Assembly: GCA_903873475.1 (NCBI GenBank)
Contig: CAIQON010000324.1
Span: forward strand, 1-46,157
From: an uncultured bacterium
GTDB taxonomy: Bacteria > Pseudomonadota > Gammaproteobacteria > Burkholderiales > CAIKXV01
Length of the DNA: 46,157 bases
Direction of reading: 5' to 3'
A model generated the notes under the pieces. It searched no databases and had not been told where the DNA came from. It saw only the letters and a program-made list of their open reading frames with translations. Both the position numbers and the translations under genes were made by a program. This document shows positions 23,404 to 30,677 of this stretch, one piece after another. How positions within the stretch are numbered: position 1 is the stretch's first letter; each line of letters starts with the position of its first letter.

Positions 23404-23490
23404 AAAAACCCGGGTCAGACACGGATTTGCGGTACTGCCAGGCAGCAGCGCGCTCCCGGCCCGCAAATCCGTGTCTGACCCGGGTTTTTC
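23403..23490. terminator. REP-like perfect inverted repeat, probable bidirectional terminator
   Basis: Arms at 23403-23432 and 23461-23490 are exact reverse complements over 30 bases, with a 28-base loop. Each arm is one REP-like unit of the family also found in ccmF and before gcvH. The left arm starts on the last base of the trkH stop, and the right arm covers two bases of the convergent gene's stop. Runs of T flank the stem in both reading directions (GGGTTTTTC). The geometry strongly suggests that a repeat pair serves as a shared terminator or mRNA 3'-end stabiliser. Confidence 0.75.
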
Positions 23491-24433
23491 AGGAGAGCCA
23501 GGCGAGGATCCTGGGGTCGAAGCCGCCGCGGTGGCGGGCGATCACGGGTTCGGCGGCGTCGATGAAGGCCTGGCGTTCCTGGGCGGTGGGCACGATCACT
23601 TCGTTCTTTGCGGGGTCGAGCTGCGAGAGTACGAACGCGTCCTCGGCACCGGCCAGTTCGCGCTGGTAGACGGTCGCCTCGCGGGCGGCTTCGAGCACGG
23701 CCTGCTGCACGTCGGTCGGCCAGCTGCGCCACACCTGCGTGTTCAGGATGAAGGCGGTGCCGCCGAACAGGTGGCCAGTCAGCGTCATGTAACGGTGATA
23801 GTCCTGCACGCCGAAGTTGTACGTGTTCGTCAGCGGGTTCTCCTGCGCATCGAAGCGCGGCCCTGCAACCTGCTCGACGAACTCCTTCACGTCGACCGGG
23901 ATCGGCACGAAGCCGAGTGCTGCGAACAGTTCTTCGTGCAGCGCGCTCATCTGGGTGCGGATGGTCAGCCCCCGGCAGTCGGCCGGCGTGCGGATCGGGC
24001 GTACCTTGTTCGAGAGGTGGCGGAAGCCGTTGTCCCAGAGCCCGAGCAGCCGCACGCCGGTGTTCGCATGCATGCCGGCCTCGAGCAGTGCGCCGAGTTC
24101 GCCATCGAAAGCCTTGTGCACCGTCGGCCGGTCGCGCACGATGAACGGCAGCTCGAGCGCGCCGAACTCGGGCACCGGCCGGGTGAAGCGCACCGACGAG
24201 ATGTAGCAGGCCTCGAGCTCGCCGCTCTCGACCATCGACGGCAGGTCGCCGGACGGCCGCCCGAGGTCGAGCACGTTGCCGATGAGTTCGAACTGCACGC
24301 GATCCTCGCCCAGGCGCGCGATGAGCCGCTCGCCGAAGCGCCGCGCCGCCTGGTTGTGGATCGACGCCGGCATCTGGTAGCCGCCGAAGCGGATGCGGAT
24401 CGGGGCAGTGGTCGGTGTATTCGACTGCGCCAT
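23489..24433 (-). CDS. TRAP-type solute-binding protein, DctP family, without visible signal peptide
   Basis: This 314-residue protein has the DctP/TeaA fold signatures: FGGYQMPASIHNQAARRFGE near the N-terminus, DLPSMVESGELEACYIS, and the ligand-site region LTIRTQMSALHEELFAALGFVPIPV with the conserved arginine, plus NPLTNTYNFGVQDYHRYMTLTGHLF. Such proteins feed carboxylates to a DctQM permease. No dctQ or dctM is near. The N-terminus (MAQSNTPTTAPIRIRFGGY) has no hydrophobic signal segment, which is unusual for a periplasmic receptor. The upstream frame offers no obvious longer start with a signal. It diverges from the RND operon. Confidence 0.8.
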   Translation of the reverse strand: MAQSNTPTTAPIRIRFGGYQMPASIHNQAARRFGERLIARLGEDRVQFELIGNVLDLGRPSGDLPSMVESGELEACYISSVRFTRPVPEFGALELPFIVRDRPTVHKAFDGELGALLEAGMHANTGVRLLGLWDNGFRHLSNKVRPIRTPADCRGLTIRTQMSALHEELFAALGFVPIPVDVKEFVEQVAGPRFDAQENPLTNTYNFGVQDYHRYMTLTGHLFGGTAFILNTQVWRSWPTDVQQAVLEAAREATVYQRELAGAEDAFVLSQLDPAKNEVIVPTAQERQAFIDAAEPVIARHRGGFDPRILAWLS

Positions 24434-24575: not shown

Positions 24576-27500
24576 GTGAACGAACCGACGCCTGCCCCAG
24601 CCCCCTCGACCTTCTCCGTCGTCGGGCTCGCGCTCAGGCGGCCGTACACGTTCATCGTGATGGCGCTGCTGATCCTGCTCGCCACGCCGTTCGTCCTGCG
24701 CAACATGGCGACGGACATCTTTCCCGAGATCGACATCCCGGTGGTCTCGATCATCTGGACCTACAACGGGCTGTCGGCACAGGAGATGGGCCAGCGCGTG
24801 GCCAACACCACCGAGCGTGGCCTGACGACCACTGTCAGCGACATCGCGCATATCGAGTCGGTCTCGCTCACCGGCGTCTCGGTGCTGAAGATCTTCTTCC
24901 AGCAGGGTGCGAACATCCAGACCGCGCTCGCGCAGGTGGTGGCGGCGGTGCAGCCGCAGGTGCGCCAGCTGCCCCCGGGCATCACGCCGCCGCTGATCAT
25001 CAAGTATTCGGCCTCGAGCATCCCGGTGGTGCAGCTCGCGCTGTCGAGCCCGACGCTGCCCGAGCAGGCGGTGTTCGACGCCGCGGTGACCCAGTTGCGC
25101 CCGCAGCTGGTGACCATCCCGGGCGCGGCGATCCCGTTCCCGTACGGCGGCAAGATCCGCGTGGTGTCGGTCGACCTGGACATCCCGGCGCTGCAGGCGC
25201 GCGGGCTCGCACCGGCCGACGTGGTGAACGCGGTCAACGCCCAGAACCTCATCCTGCCGGCCGGCACCGCGAAGTTCGGCGACACCGAATACAGCGTGAA
25301 GATGAACAGCTCGCCGGATGCGATCACCGGGCTGGGCGAACTGCCGGTGCGCACCACCGGCGGCACCACGGTCTACCTGCGCGACGTCGCAGCGGTGCGC
25401 GACGGCTTCTCGCCGCAGACCAACGTGGTGCGCCAGGACGGCAACCGCGGCGTGCTGCTGTCGGTGCTGAAGAACGGTGGCGCATCGACGGTCGACATCG
25501 TGAACGACCTGCTCGCGATGCTGCCCAAGGCGGTGAAGATCCTGCCGGAAGACATCAAGGTCACGCCGCTGTTCGACCAGTCGGTGTTCGTGAAGGCGGC
25601 GGTGAACGCCGTGGTGGTCGAGGCGCTGATCGCCGCCGGCCTCACCGCACTGATGGTGCTGCTGTTCCTGGGCAACTGGCGCAGCACGGTGATCATCGCG
25701 ATGACCATCCCGCTGTCGATCCTGGCCTCGATCATCATGCTGCACATCCTGGGCGAGACGCTGAACCTGATGACGCTGGGTGGCCTCGCGCTGTCGGTCG
25801 GCATCCTGGTCGACCAGGCGATCGTGACGATCGAGAACATCGAGCGCCACCTGCATCTGGGCAAGCCGCTGGAAGAGGCGATCCTCGTCGGCGCCGGCGA
25901 GATCGGCGTGCCAGCCTTCGTCGCCACGCTGTGCATCTGCATCGTGTTCGTGCCGATGTTCTTCCTGTCCGGCGTCGCGCGCTTCCTGTTCGTACCGCTG
26001 GCCGAGGCGGTGGTGTTCGCGATGATCGCGTCCTACATCCTGTCGCGCACGCTGGTGCCGACGATGGTGATGCTGCTGATGCGCGACGTGCACGGCAGGG
26101 TTGAGCCTGCCGGCGCCCGGCCGAGCCTGCTGCAGCGGGTCTACCGCGGCTTCGACCAGAAATTCGAGCATGTGCGTCGCGCATACACCATCACGCTGTC
26201 GGCCGCGCTGGCTTCGCGCAAGACCTTCGCGGTGGTGTTCCTCGGCTTCTGCGCGCTGTCCTGCCTGCTGTTCCCGTTCCTCGGCCAGGACTTCTTTCCG
26301 TCGGTCGACGCCGGGCAGATCCGCCTGCACCTGCGCGCGCCGACCGGTACCCGCATCGAGCAGACCGCGCGCATCGCCGACCAGGTCGAGACCGCGATCC
26401 GCGAGATGGTCCCGCCGGAAGAGCTCGAGACCATCCTCGACAACATCGGCGTGCCCAACAGCGGCATCAACCTGTCCTACAGCAACGCCGGCACCATCGG
26501 CACCTTCGACGCGGAAGTGCTGATCGCGCTGAAGAAGGGCCACCGGCCTACCGACGAGATCATCAGCCAGTTACGCCTGGAACTGCCGAAGCGGTTCCCC
26601 GGCGTCGAGTTCTTCTTCCAGCCCGCGGACATCGTCACCCAGATCCTGAACTTCGGCCTGCCGGCGGCGATCGACATCCAGTTCTCCGGCGCACGCATGG
26701 AGCAGAACGCGGCGCTGGCCGGCGAACTGGTGAAGTCGATCCGGCAGATCCCGGGCGCGGTCGACGTGCATGTGCACCAGCGGCTCGACAACCCGGCCAT
26801 CGACCTGCGCATGGACCGCGCGCGGCTGCAGCAGGTGGGCATGACCGCCTTCAACGTCGGCCAGAACGTGCTGATCTCGCTCTCGGGCAGCGCGCAGACG
26901 GCCCCGGCGTTCTGGCTCAACCCGGCCAACGGCGTGGTGTACAGCGTGCAGATGTCGGCGCCGCAGTACAGCATCGATTCGCTCGACGGCCTGCTCAACA
27001 TCCCGGTCGGCGCAGCGGGCGTGGGCAGCCTGGCCGGCAGCGCACCGCAGGTGCTGGGCAACCTGGTCGAAGCGCGGCCGGGGCGCAGCCTGTCGATCGT
27101 CTCGCGCTACAACCTGTCGCCGGTGGTCGATGTCTACGTGAGCGTGCAGGGCACCGACCTGGCCTCGGTCGCGCGCCAGGTCGAGAAGAAAGTCGATGAG
27201 ATCCGTCCGAAGCTGCCGCGCGGCAGCGACGTCACGATCCGCGGCCAGGTGCTGACCATGCAGGAGTCGTTCCTCGGCCTGGGCGTGGGCCTGGCGATGG
27301 CGATCGTGCTGGTCTACCTGCTGATCGTGGTCAACTTCCAGTCGTGGACCGACGCCTTCATCATCATCATGGCGCTGCCCGCGGCGCTCGGCGGCATCGC
27401 CTGGATGCTGTTCATCACCGGCACCACGCTGAGCGTGCCGGCGCTCACTGGCGCGATCATGACGATGGGCGTGGCTACCGCCAACAGCATCCTGGTCGTG

Positions 27501-27845
27501 TCGTTCGCGCGCGACCGGCTGGCGGCCGGGGTGCCGCCGCTGTCGGCGGCGCTGGAAGCCGGTGCCACCCGCATCCGCCCGGTGCTGATGACCGCGCTGG
27601 CGATGGTCATCGGCATGGTGCCGATGGCGCTGGGCATCGGCGAAGGCGCCGAACAGAATGCGCCGCTCGGCCGCGCGGTGATCGGCGGCCTGCTGCTCGC
27701 CACCGTGTCCACGCTGTTCTTCGTGCCGGTGCTGTTCGCCGACGTCCACCAGCGCATCGCCCGGCGCAAGGCCGCGCGCACCGGCACCGGCAACGCAGCC
27801 GGCGATGCCGGGCCGCCGTCGTCGCCCGCGCCAGTCGGCACCTGA
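24576..27845 (+). CDS. RND efflux transporter permease subunit
   Basis: This 1089-residue inner-membrane RND pump has twelve membrane spans and two large periplasmic loops. The family context TDIFPEIDIPVVSIIW follows the first span. TM4 reads GLALSVGILVDQAIVTIEN: D413 is present but the second aspartate expected in AcrB-type pumps is Q414. TM10 reads MTMGVATANSILVV, with Ala at the place of the AcrB lysine (about residue 969). The proton relay therefore differs from AcrB. It is the first gene of a complete tripartite operon. Closest broad class is multidrug or solvent (HAE-like) rather than metal pumps, judged by general sequence; the substrate is unknown. Confidence 0.9.
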   Translation: MNEPTPAPAPSTFSVVGLALRRPYTFIVMALLILLATPFVLRNMATDIFPEIDIPVVSIIWTYNGLSAQEMGQRVANTTERGLTTTVSDIAHIESVSLTGVSVLKIFFQQGANIQTALAQVVAAVQPQVRQLPPGITPPLIIKYSASSIPVVQLALSSPTLPEQAVFDAAVTQLRPQLVTIPGAAIPFPYGGKIRVVSVDLDIPALQARGLAPADVVNAVNAQNLILPAGTAKFGDTEYSVKMNSSPDAITGLGELPVRTTGGTTVYLRDVAAVRDGFSPQTNVVRQDGNRGVLLSVLKNGGASTVDIVNDLLAMLPKAVKILPEDIKVTPLFDQSVFVKAAVNAVVVEALIAAGLTALMVLLFLGNWRSTVIIAMTIPLSILASIIMLHILGETLNLMTLGGLALSVGILVDQAIVTIENIERHLHLGKPLEEAILVGAGEIGVPAFVATLCICIVFVPMFFLSGVARFLFVPLAEAVVFAMIASYILSRTLVPTMVMLLMRDVHGRVEPAGARPSLLQRVYRGFDQKFEHVRRAYTITLSAALASRKTFAVVFLGFCALSCLLFPFLGQDFFPSVDAGQIRLHLRAPTGTRIEQTARIADQVETAIREMVPPEELETILDNIGVPNSGINLSYSNAGTIGTFDAEVLIALKKGHRPTDEIISQLRLELPKRFPGVEFFFQPADIVTQILNFGLPAAIDIQFSGARMEQNAALAGELVKSIRQIPGAVDVHVHQRLDNPAIDLRMDRARLQQVGMTAFNVGQNVLISLSGSAQTAPAFWLNPANGVVYSVQMSAPQYSIDSLDGLLNIPVGAAGVGSLAGSAPQVLGNLVEARPGRSLSIVSRYNLSPVVDVYVSVQGTDLASVARQVEKKVDEIRPKLPRGSDVTIRGQVLTMQESFLGLGVGLAMAIVLVYLLIVVNFQSWTDAFIIIMALPAALGGIAWMLFITGTTLSVPALTGAIMTMGVATANSILVVSFARDRLAAGVPPLSAALEAGATRIRPVLMTALAMVIGMVPMALGIGEGAEQNAPLGRAVIGGLLLATVSTLFFVPVLFADVHQRIARRKAARTGTGNAAGDAGPPSSPAPVGT

Positions 27846-27882
27846 CCTGCAGCGGCATACCGACACACGGAGCCTCGTCTTC

Positions 27883-29202
27883 ATGCCTGAACAACGCCAC
27901 CACGACCTCGCGATACATCCGATCGAGGATACCGACCCCGCCGACCTGATGCAGCGGCGCGCGGTCGTCCGGCGCGGCAAGTGGCTGGCCTTCATCGTCG
28001 TGCTGCTGCTCGCGGTGGGCGCCGGCCGTGCTGTGGTGATCCGGAACACGAACGCCAGTGCGCTGGAAGCCAGCATCGCCGACCTGTCCAAGGTCTATGT
28101 GCGGGTGACCCAGCCGAAGACCTCGGACGTCGGCCAGACAGTGACCCTGCCCGGCACGCTGCAGGGCTACACCCAGTCGCCGATCGGCGCACGCGCCAGT
28201 GGCTACGTGAAGCGCTGGCACCGCGACATCGGCAGCCGGGTGAAGGCCGGCGACCTGCTCGCCGAGATCGACACGCCCGAGATCGACCAGCAACTGGTGC
28301 AGGCGCTGGCCGCGCGCGAACAGACCGCCGCCAGCCTGGCGCTTGCCACGAGTTCGCTCGAGCGCTGGGAGGCCCTGCGCCGGAAGGATGCCGTCTCGCA
28401 GCAGGAACTCGACGAGCGGCGCAGCAACGAGGTTCAGGCCCGCGCCAACCTGGCCGCCGCGGATGCGAACATCGTGCGGCTGCGCCAGCTGGAGAGCTTC
28501 AAGCGGGTGGTCGCACCGTTCTCCGGCGTGATCACCCGGCGCAGCGTCGATGTCGGCGACCTGATCGACGCTGGCGGCGGTGCCGCCCGTGCGCTGTTCG
28601 TGCTGACCCAGACCGAGACGCTGCGCGCCTTCATCTCGGTGCCGCAGAGCTACGCGCACCTGGTGCGCGCCGGCCAGGAGGTGAAGGTCACCCAGATCGA
28701 GCTGCAGGGCCGGGTATTCGCCGGCAAGGTTGTACGTACCTCGTCGGCGATCGACCCCGCCACGCGCACGATGCAGGTGGAGGTGAACCTGCCCAACCCG
28801 GACGGCGCGCTGATGCCGGGCGCGTTCATCCAGGTCGCGCTGCCGCTGAAGGCGAGCCAGGCGACGACGGTCGAGTCGAACACGCTGATGTTCCGTGCCG
28901 AAGGCGTACGGGTCGCGGTGGTCGGCGCCGATGGCGTGGTCAAGCTGCGCCCGGTGCGGATCGGCCGCAACTTCGGCCAGACGGTCGAGATCCTGGAAGG
29001 CATCACGACGGGCGAGCGGGTCGTGATGAACCCGTCCGATTCGATCGGCGAAGGCGACAAGGTGACCGTCGTCACGGCGCCGCCCGCTGGCCGTGACGGT
29101 GCGAAGGGCGCCGCCGGCAAGGGTGCCCCCGACAAGGCGCCCGGCAAGGATGCGGAGAAGGCAGCCGGCAAGGGCACGGCACAGGGGCAGCCGAAGTCAT
29201 GA
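27883..29202 (+). CDS. Efflux RND transporter periplasmic adaptor subunit
   Basis: This 439-residue membrane fusion protein has one N-terminal span (about 32-51), a lipoyl-like half (GYVKRWHRDIGSRVKAGDLLAEIDTPE), an alpha hairpin (EIDQQLVQALAAREQ to NLAAADANIVRLRQLESF), the second lipoyl half (VVAPFSGVITRRSVDVGDLI) and a beta-barrel. The C-terminal tail after residue 405 is Lys/Gly/Ala/Asp-rich and probably disordered. It bridges the pump and the outer-membrane channel. The start ATG at 27883 is 37 bases after the pump gene, and the stop overlaps the next ATG (29199-29202). Confidence 0.92.
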   Translation: MPEQRHHDLAIHPIEDTDPADLMQRRAVVRRGKWLAFIVVLLLAVGAGRAVVIRNTNASALEASIADLSKVYVRVTQPKTSDVGQTVTLPGTLQGYTQSPIGARASGYVKRWHRDIGSRVKAGDLLAEIDTPEIDQQLVQALAAREQTAASLALATSSLERWEALRRKDAVSQQELDERRSNEVQARANLAAADANIVRLRQLESFKRVVAPFSGVITRRSVDVGDLIDAGGGAARALFVLTQTETLRAFISVPQSYAHLVRAGQEVKVTQIELQGRVFAGKVVRTSSAIDPATRTMQVEVNLPNPDGALMPGAFIQVALPLKASQATTVESNTLMFRAEGVRVAVVGADGVVKLRPVRIGRNFGQTVEILEGITTGERVVMNPSDSIGEGDKVTVVTAPPAGRDGAKGAAGKGAPDKAPGKDAEKAAGKGTAQGQPKS

Positions 29203-30677
29203 AGACGGTGCGTGGCCGACCGGATCGACTGCGCCGGCGCACGCTGCTCGCACTGGCCGCGCTGCTGCCCGGGTGCACCGCCGGCCCTGACTACAGGCGC
29301 CCGGTGCTGTCGATGCCCGAGGGCTGGAAGGTCGAGGCGCCGTTTCGTGCAGGCACGCCGGATGACGGCGCGGCGAAGGGCCCGTGGTGGCAGCGCTTCG
29401 GCGATCCGACGCTCGACGACCTGCAGGGCCGGGCGATGCGCGACAGCGCCACGCTGGAGATCGCCGCCGCGCGACTCGCGCAGACCGGCGCGCTGCTCGA
29501 GACCGCGCTGTCGGCGCGTTACCCGCAGGTGGCCGCTGCGCTGCGCGACCAGCGGCTGCGCATCTCCGGGAACCGGCCGCTGACCAACTATGCACAGCGT
29601 CAGTTCACGACGGTGCAGGACGACTACCTGGCCGTGCTCTCGGTGTCCTACGAGGTCGATTTCGCCGGCCGGGTGCAGCGATCGATCGAGGGGGCGCGCG
29701 CCAACGCGGCACAGTCGGCCGCCGACTTCGAGAACGCGCGCCTGCTGCTGTCGGCCGATCTCTCCACCGCCTATTTCAACCTGCGCGCGGTCGATATCGA
29801 ACTGGACGTGCTCGCGCGCTCGATCGCCCTGCAGCAGCGTTCGCTGTCGCTCGCACGTTCGCGGTATGAACTCGGTGCGGCGTCGGGCCTGGACATCGCG
29901 CAGCAGCAGGCGCTGGTCGACAGCACCCTGACGCAGGTCGACCTGCTGCGCCGGCAGCGCAGCCAGTTCGAACACGCGATCGCTACGCTCACCGGCACGC
30001 CGGCACCGCTGTTCTCGCTGCCGCCGCAGGCGCATCCGCTCAATCCGCCAGTGGTTCCGATCGGCGTGCCATCGGACCTGCTCGAACGGCGTCCCGACGT
30101 GGCGGCCGCCGAGCGCGCGATGGCCGTGGCCAACGCGCAGGTGGGCATCGTAGAGGCTGCGTTCTATCCGAGCATCGTGCTCGGCAGCACCTTTGGCGGA
30201 CAGAGCCGCGACCTGTCCAGCCTGTTCACGGTACCCAGCATCGTCTGGTCGATCGGCGCGAGCCTCGCCCAGCCGATCTTCGACGGCGGACGCCTGCGCG
30301 GGCTGTCGGCGAGCGCGCAGGCTGGCTACGACATCGCGGTCGGCAACTACCGGCGTGTCGTGCTGACCGCGATGCAGGAGGCCGAGGACGGCATCCTCGG
30401 CCTGGCTGCGCTCGAACGCGCGCATGCGCAGGCGCTGAAGGCAGTGGCCAGCGCGAACCGGGTATTCGACATCGCGACCGCCCGCTACGAGGGCGGCGTC
30501 GCAACCTCGCTCGACGTGATCGTCGCGCAGCAGTTGCAGCTCAACGCAGAACGGCTGGCGGCACAGCTGCTCGGCCAGCGCATGCTCGCCTCGGTGTTCC
30601 TGGTGAAGGCGCTCGGCGGCGACTGGCAGGGGTTCGAAAAAGCCGCGGCCAAGTCCGCCCCCACGCCCACCCCCTGA
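29199..30677 (+). CDS. Efflux outer-membrane lipoprotein, NodT/OprM type
   Basis: This 492-residue TolC-like channel has a basic N-terminus and lipobox LLPGC with lipidated C26, followed by TAGPDYRRP, which is typical of NodT proteins. Two OEP repeats follow, with signatures WWQRFGDPTLDDL, YEVDFAGRVQRSIE, PSDLLERRPDVAAAERAM and QPIFDGGRLRGLS. The C-terminal helix set ends in Ala/Lys/Pro-rich sequence. It completes the RND operon, starting in a 4-base overlap with the adaptor. It converges with the next gene, 12 bases away, with no hairpin seen in between. Confidence 0.93.
   Translation: MKTVRGRPDRLRRRTLLALAALLPGCTAGPDYRRPVLSMPEGWKVEAPFRAGTPDDGAAKGPWWQRFGDPTLDDLQGRAMRDSATLEIAAARLAQTGALLETALSARYPQVAAALRDQRLRISGNRPLTNYAQRQFTTVQDDYLAVLSVSYEVDFAGRVQRSIEGARANAAQSAADFENARLLLSADLSTAYFNLRAVDIELDVLARSIALQQRSLSLARSRYELGAASGLDIAQQQALVDSTLTQVDLLRRQRSQFEHAIATLTGTPAPLFSLPPQAHPLNPPVVPIGVPSDLLERRPDVAAAERAMAVANAQVGIVEAAFYPSIVLGSTFGGQSRDLSSLFTVPSIVWSIGASLAQPIFDGGRLRGLSASAQAGYDIAVGNYRRVVLTAMQEAEDGILGLAALERAHAQALKAVASANRVFDIATARYEGGVATSLDVIVAQQLQLNAERLAAQLLGQRMLASVFLVKALGGDWQGFEKAAAKSAPTPTP

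Follow-up and report, generated by a model that had tools for sequence, protein, structure and literature searches.

An RND permease branch with glutamine at the position of the second TM4 aspartate and no TM10 lysine

The first gene of an efflux operon in the 46,157-nucleotide stretch of bacterial DNA analyzed here (the window) encodes an RND permease in which glutamine occupies the position of the second TM4 aspartate of AcrB (D408) and alanine that of the TM10 lysine (K940). This sequence pattern, its conservation, the absence of a base at 940 throughout a family that otherwise keeps D408, and the association of a changed D408 with a missing base are established. Comparison with known pumps makes it probable that the protein is an efflux permease of the type placed in Burkholderia cluster C by Perrin et al., in which the second TM4 aspartate has become glutamine, and that it is most likely a proton-driven exporter in which Asp413 is the one carboxylate left in the TM4 pair. 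The pump is a genuine variant of a known family, conserved and of mild interest, and judging from its sequence relatives the glutamine change looks tolerated rather than broken.

The gene occupies an open frame at positions 24576 to 27845 on the plus strand, with a GTG start, 1089 codons plus the stop, and no internal stop. Its 1089-residue product matches Pfam ACR_tran at full length (662.4 bits versus a cut-off of 28, residues 17–1057). TM4 reads GILVDQAIVTIEN, including D413-Q414, and TM10 reads GVATANSILVV. In an alignment with E. coli K-12 AcrB (L119) and CusA (L120), Asp413 (codon 25812–25814, plus strand, as are all the following) corresponds to AcrB D407, Gln414 (CAG, 25815–25817) to D408, Ala969 (27480–27482) to K940, Asn970 (27483–27485) to N941, Arg999 (27570–27572) to R971, and Thr1006 (27591–27593) to T978. 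Ser407 (25794–25796) lies at the position of AcrB A401 and CzcA D402, and Ile416 (25821–25823) at that of AcrB I410. An earlier sequence-only reading had described an Asp-Gln pair in TM4 and a missing TM10 lysine on the AcrB relay, in an intact gene with intact bordering motifs, and the alignment bore out both points: the frame is open and the pump keeps G403, D407, E414, N415, N941, R971 and T978 (AcrB numbers). The TM4 motif G-x3-D-x6-E (G409, D413 and E420) is present in the window pump and in 89 of 89 rows of its clade. A pseudogene was ruled out for the window by the open frame and the conserved operon. The predicted model of the pump has a mean pLDDT of 55.6, which is too low for side-chain placement or a fold search. 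By sequence, the nearest protein chain of known structure is MdtB (E 2e-84), and thus there is no solved structure of a close relative.

The sequence-only reading had proposed to check Gln414 in orthologues and to align the pump against RND subfamilies. When this was carried out, glutamine was found at AcrB position 408 in all 89 non-identical rows sharing at least 70% identity with the window pump. These rows comprise the best 80 of 553 confirmed loci together with loci from further searches, after four exact duplicates were dropped; the window pump and L090, which are 99.8% identical, are both among them. A940, N941, R971 and T978 are present in all 86 rows that reach TM10, the aligned pieces of L045, L097 and L099 stopping short of it. 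Since only the best 80 of 553 loci were kept, that set consists of near relatives by construction, with identities to the window pump of 74–99%. In the same 80 loci, Gln414 is encoded by CAG 73 times and by CAA 7 times, and this occurrence of both synonymous codons indicates that it is the residue that is kept. A sequencing error or a single-strain mutation was ruled out by the presence of glutamine in 89 of 89 rows. A FastTree phylogeny of 252 rows was built after removal of the columns covering the TM4 and TM10 motifs, using every fourth Q row including the window (22 rows), with L220, L229, L330 and L331 left out. The 22 Q rows formed one branch with a support of 100, and on this tree the Gln414 of the window's branch arose once.

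Within the membrane ranges used, which are AcrB helix ranges, four positions are fixed in the Q branch and occur at no more than 5% in the wider family, namely S407, Q414, I416 and A927; seven further such fixed positions lie outside these ranges, one of them at the edge of TM5. Ser407 is co-fixed with Gln414 in the sampled Q branch, with Ser in all 86 clade rows where all 100 wider-family rows have Ala, and position 416 is Ile in 86 of 86 clade rows and Thr in 97 of 100 wider-family rows. No acidic or basic membrane residue was gained along with the glutamine; those charged residues that the clade does have in the membrane also occur in D408-bearing relatives. Among the best 80 of 553 loci, 77 records belong to the Betaproteobacteria and 63 to the Burkholderiales by NCBI rank, the rest being in other orders or unranked. 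Among the 274 genomes sampled from the class and the 299 from the phylum, no match other than the window itself was listed at 70% identity or more, and the Q branch thus looks restricted to the window's order. Within the genus, six of ten genomes have a match at E ≤ 1e-100 and four have none, and by this measure the pump is accessory.

From the gene content of the window, the pump is the first gene of an operon for an RND permease, an adaptor and an outer membrane channel. It is followed on the plus strand by a periplasmic adaptor (membrane fusion protein; 27805–29202, Pfam HlyD_D23) and an outer membrane factor (29199–30677, Pfam OEP). The adaptor frame, as listed from 27805, overlaps the 3′ end of the pump gene, and its translation probably starts at the ATG at 27883, as eight listed plasmid homologues match only from residue 25–27. 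With loci sorted by matched stretch, 73 of the best 80 of 553 loci show the full RND-MFP-OMF order; in six of the remainder the locus ends before the order is complete, and in one the RND gene is interrupted by a stop. The latter (L045:4504–7648) is the only split pump gene among these 80 and may reflect either decay or a sequence error. No second intact RND gene scoring at least a quarter of the self score was found in the 80 loci. The divergent gene upstream of the pump encodes a TRAP-type solute-binding protein (DctP; 23489–24433, minus strand), and it is probably not part of the pump system, as a similar neighbor occurs in only 2 of the best 80 of 553 loci, several of which are short. A promoter and terminator scan gave one promoter-like site (0.5 expected), on the opposite strand, and no terminator. 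A PADLOC scan gave a single match (E 0.00094) with no stretch passing alone, which was disregarded.

Comparison with the wider family indicates the order in which the two relay residues were lost. The 100 same-family rows at 42–70% identity carry no base at 940 (Ala in 96, Ser in 4), and yet 89 of them keep Asp at 408, with Glu in 5, Asn in 5 and Leu in 1. Thus, on these comparisons, the TM10 lysine was missing in this family before the second aspartate was replaced. The family members with Glu at 408 are L109, L111, L173, L192 and L199, and all of these except L192 group together in a single branch where Asn at 415 is likewise replaced by Ser.

A similar association was observed across RND pumps in general. 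In a set of 109 near-full-length RND genes from ten genomes, D408 is present in 74 of the 75 genes with Lys or Arg at 940 and in 14 of the 34 genes without such a base, 20 of the latter lacking it. The set was drawn from 118 listed matches, of which 9 partial ones were dropped, and contains no near-duplicates; the genomes (nine from the genome list plus G126) were picked for spread and RND number, not randomly. The first aspartate (D407) is present in all 326 rows with a letter at that position, of 327 aligned. On the 252-row tree, which oversamples the window's family, D408 changed at least 14 times, 13 times on base-less branches and once on a base-bearing branch (L315), although the total branch length is equal (57.8 versus 58.0; binomial p 0.001). 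Restricted to the ten-genome set, the rate test gives a weaker result, with five versus one changes in either direction, one of the five being a regain (p 0.03). An independent-pairs test was powerless because the base itself changed only three times and gave only three sister pairs. Collectively, these sequence comparisons make the association between the base and D408 strong in counts and moderate phylogenetically.

The residues at 408 in base-less pumps also include N, E, L, G, A and S, and among metal pumps the TM4 motif is VDA in CusA and VDG in L002 and L005, both from the window's genome. The sequence-only reading had held that loss of the second aspartate is uncommon, and this fails against the 20 of 34 base-less genes in ten genomes and against the metal pumps. 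Its statement that lysine loss is common in some RND subfamilies agrees with the Burkholderia cluster without K940 described in PMC2891726. The analysis turned up no large, characterized proton-driven clade carrying exactly DQ; in CusA, a pump described as driven by the proton motive force, the pair reads DA. Overall, that earlier interpretation is partly supported. The link between the base and D408 was already anticipated by a 2017 review (PMC5719797), which describes weaker conservation of D408 than of D407, notes that many members possess only one acidic residue, and considers it likely that D408 goes as well when K940 is lost.

These observations suggest a possible history for the window's branch. 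As a first step, K940 would have been lost, or was never present. Without a positive charge at 940, the second aspartate would stay neutral and would act as a hydrogen-bonding group only, as in calculations on AcrB in which D408 is reported to be permanently neutral in K940A (PMC4359379). Asn or Gln could do the same job, so that D408 would be replaceable repeatedly. Asp413 alone of the TM4 pair would then be protonated and released in each cycle, with one proton per cycle, and Arg999, Thr1006 and Asn970 may form a hydrogen-bond network with the polar Gln414 and Ser407, the latter two supplying the polar groups that a single acid is described as needing nearby (PMC5719797). Proton coupling, a one-proton cycle, and the roles of Gln414 and Ser407 are what we infer from the residue pattern. 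AcrB D408N and K940A are both inactive, which the authors attributed to a loss of interface strength in the L and T states (PMC4359379), and a single carboxylate thus cannot be assumed to be sufficient without other changes. A more general proposal would be that D408 is needed only together with a TM10 base and is otherwise a permanently neutral spacer, with Gln taking its place here, Ser at the position of the second aspartate of CzcA, and an obligate one-proton cycle; we regard this stronger form as plausible but somewhat short of an even chance.

Several other explanations of the pattern were considered. The relay may have been rebuilt such that two protons are still moved and a second titratable group elsewhere, e.g., E349 in TM2, E477 in TM6 or E420 in TM4, replaces D408. 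E349 is found in 86 of 86 clade rows and 97 of 100 family rows, base-bearing pumps having mostly Thr there (65 of 102), and E477 in 77 of 86 and 62 of 100, respectively. However, both are common to relatives that keep D408, and E420 (AcrB E414) is present in all 89 clade rows and all 100 family rows; none of the candidate acids thus arose with the glutamine change, and a rebuilt relay is considered unlikely. Ordinary drift, in which position 408 accepts any residue after the loss of K940 and the glutamine has no role, would account for the variety of residues seen there in base-less pumps. The invariance of the glutamine in the sampled branch, together with fixed Ser407 and Ile416, would be unexpected under free drift, and we consider this reading improbable as well.

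The sequence-only reading had also raised different ion use. A carboxylate, an amide and a hydroxyl close together on TM4 (D413, Q414 and S407) could coordinate sodium, which might be used alone or with protons, and the RND pump VexEF is reported to require sodium (PMC10872679). VexEF belongs to another clade, however (H, matched to Perrin clade E and not C; PMC10872679), and the other relay residues of the window pump, D407, R971, T978 and N941 in AcrB numbers, are unchanged, with no new charged membrane residue marking the clade. The suggestion was thus unsupported, and sodium use appears very unlikely. That the pump is uncoupled or decaying, either as a permease on its way to a pseudogene or as one needing a partner subunit, is the most doubtful of all and has hardly any likelihood. 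The abolition of AcrB activity by loss of D408 or K940 (PMC4359379), the four of ten same-genus genomes without a match, and the stop in L045 would fit such decay. The open frame, the retained relay residues, the 74–99% identity over the best 80 of 553 loci, the fixation of glutamine despite synonymous codon variation, the kept operon, and the lack of a second intact RND gene in those loci argue against it.

The window pump scores below the curated NCBIfam cut-offs for the 18 families listed (e.g., 530 of 1250 for RND_permease_2 and 356 of 940 for 2A0602) and, on these profile scores, falls in none of the named subfamilies of RND permeases. A metal pump (HME) was not supported, as the score for the CusA/CzcA family TIGR00914 is 403.7 bits versus a cut-off of 701.45. 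Where the HAE-1 criterion names D407-D408 and K940 or R940, the window pump has Q414 and A969. It belongs to the same Pfam family as AcrB and shares D407, N941, R971 and T978 with it, but the two are only 26% identical over the aligned part and the window pump is without K940 and D408. With CusA and CzcA it has in common that, of the D407-D408 pair, just the first aspartate is present, and that there is no Lys at 940. The CusA relay uses D405, which is the lone aspartate of its TM4 pair in our alignment, along with E939 and K984 (PMC8092243); the latter two are absent from the window pump, and CzrA and NczA are reported to keep only the aspartate of this set (PMC3637150). CzcA has an extra Asp, D402 (numbering from PMC2891726), described as the second acidic residue in TM4 of pumps for divalent metals, and our motif alignment places it at Ser407 of the window pump.

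The nearest described group is cluster C of Perrin et al. (2010), a Burkholderia cluster of uncertain function with an HAE1-like TM4, no K940, and a hydrophobic residue followed by Ala at the FF positions of AcrB (PMC2891726). We took this cluster as CDS14-16 (BCAS0582, BCAM1421 and BCAL2134) from the gene orders in that paper, and the RND-first order given there as that of cluster C. The window pump shares the lack of K940, the retention of D407, R971 and T978, and an RND gene upstream of MFP and OMP, and it has LA at the FF positions; LA, IA and VA are the commonest pairs there in both the Q set and the wider family, with other pairs or no motif in some rows. Compared by the paper's description, cluster C has DD in TM4, whereas the window's branch has DQ with Ser407 and Ile416, and the pump is thus a relative or variant of cluster C and not a typical member. 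A B. cenocepacia record holds a homologue of 64.5% identity (L330). One such pump, RND-16 (BCAL2134-2136, "uncertain function"), appears in a table of a 2021 review alongside minocycline, meropenem and ciprofloxacin (PMC8300704). Table 1 of a 2024 phylogeny carries no mapping of Perrin cluster C (PMC10872679). PMC8277102 and PMC1557404 served as background only. We found no assay of any Q-branch member in the literature and no description of a natural glutamine at AcrB position 408, in a search that covered mainly titles, abstracts and open papers and included a text search for the motif strings; this matched 190 papers, and none of the 10 listed has a title on RND pumps.

The number of protons that an RND pump moves per cycle, one or two, is described as an open question (PMC11058585). 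A conserved natural branch with one TM4 aspartate and no TM10 lysine, having near relatives with both aspartates, provides a built-in comparison. If the one-carboxylate reading is true, the disputed stoichiometry could be tested by comparing DQ relatives, DD relatives without the lysine, and DD relatives with it. For annotation, these results suggest that a missing D408 does not mark a pump as dead when K940 is absent.

Three further pumps were noted in these comparisons. L142, from genome G530 of the same class, also has Gln at 408 and no TM10 base, but it differs from the window pump in its low identity (40%), in Ala at 401 and in having no Asn941, and on the 252-row tree its glutamine arose separately inside a small N408 group. 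L315 (genome G536) pairs Lys at 940 with Asn at 408, which no other RND pump in these comparisons does, and is the exception to the general rule. L302 (genome G405) combines DD in TM4 with Glu at 940 (motif VTEVG) and represents a further kind of relay.
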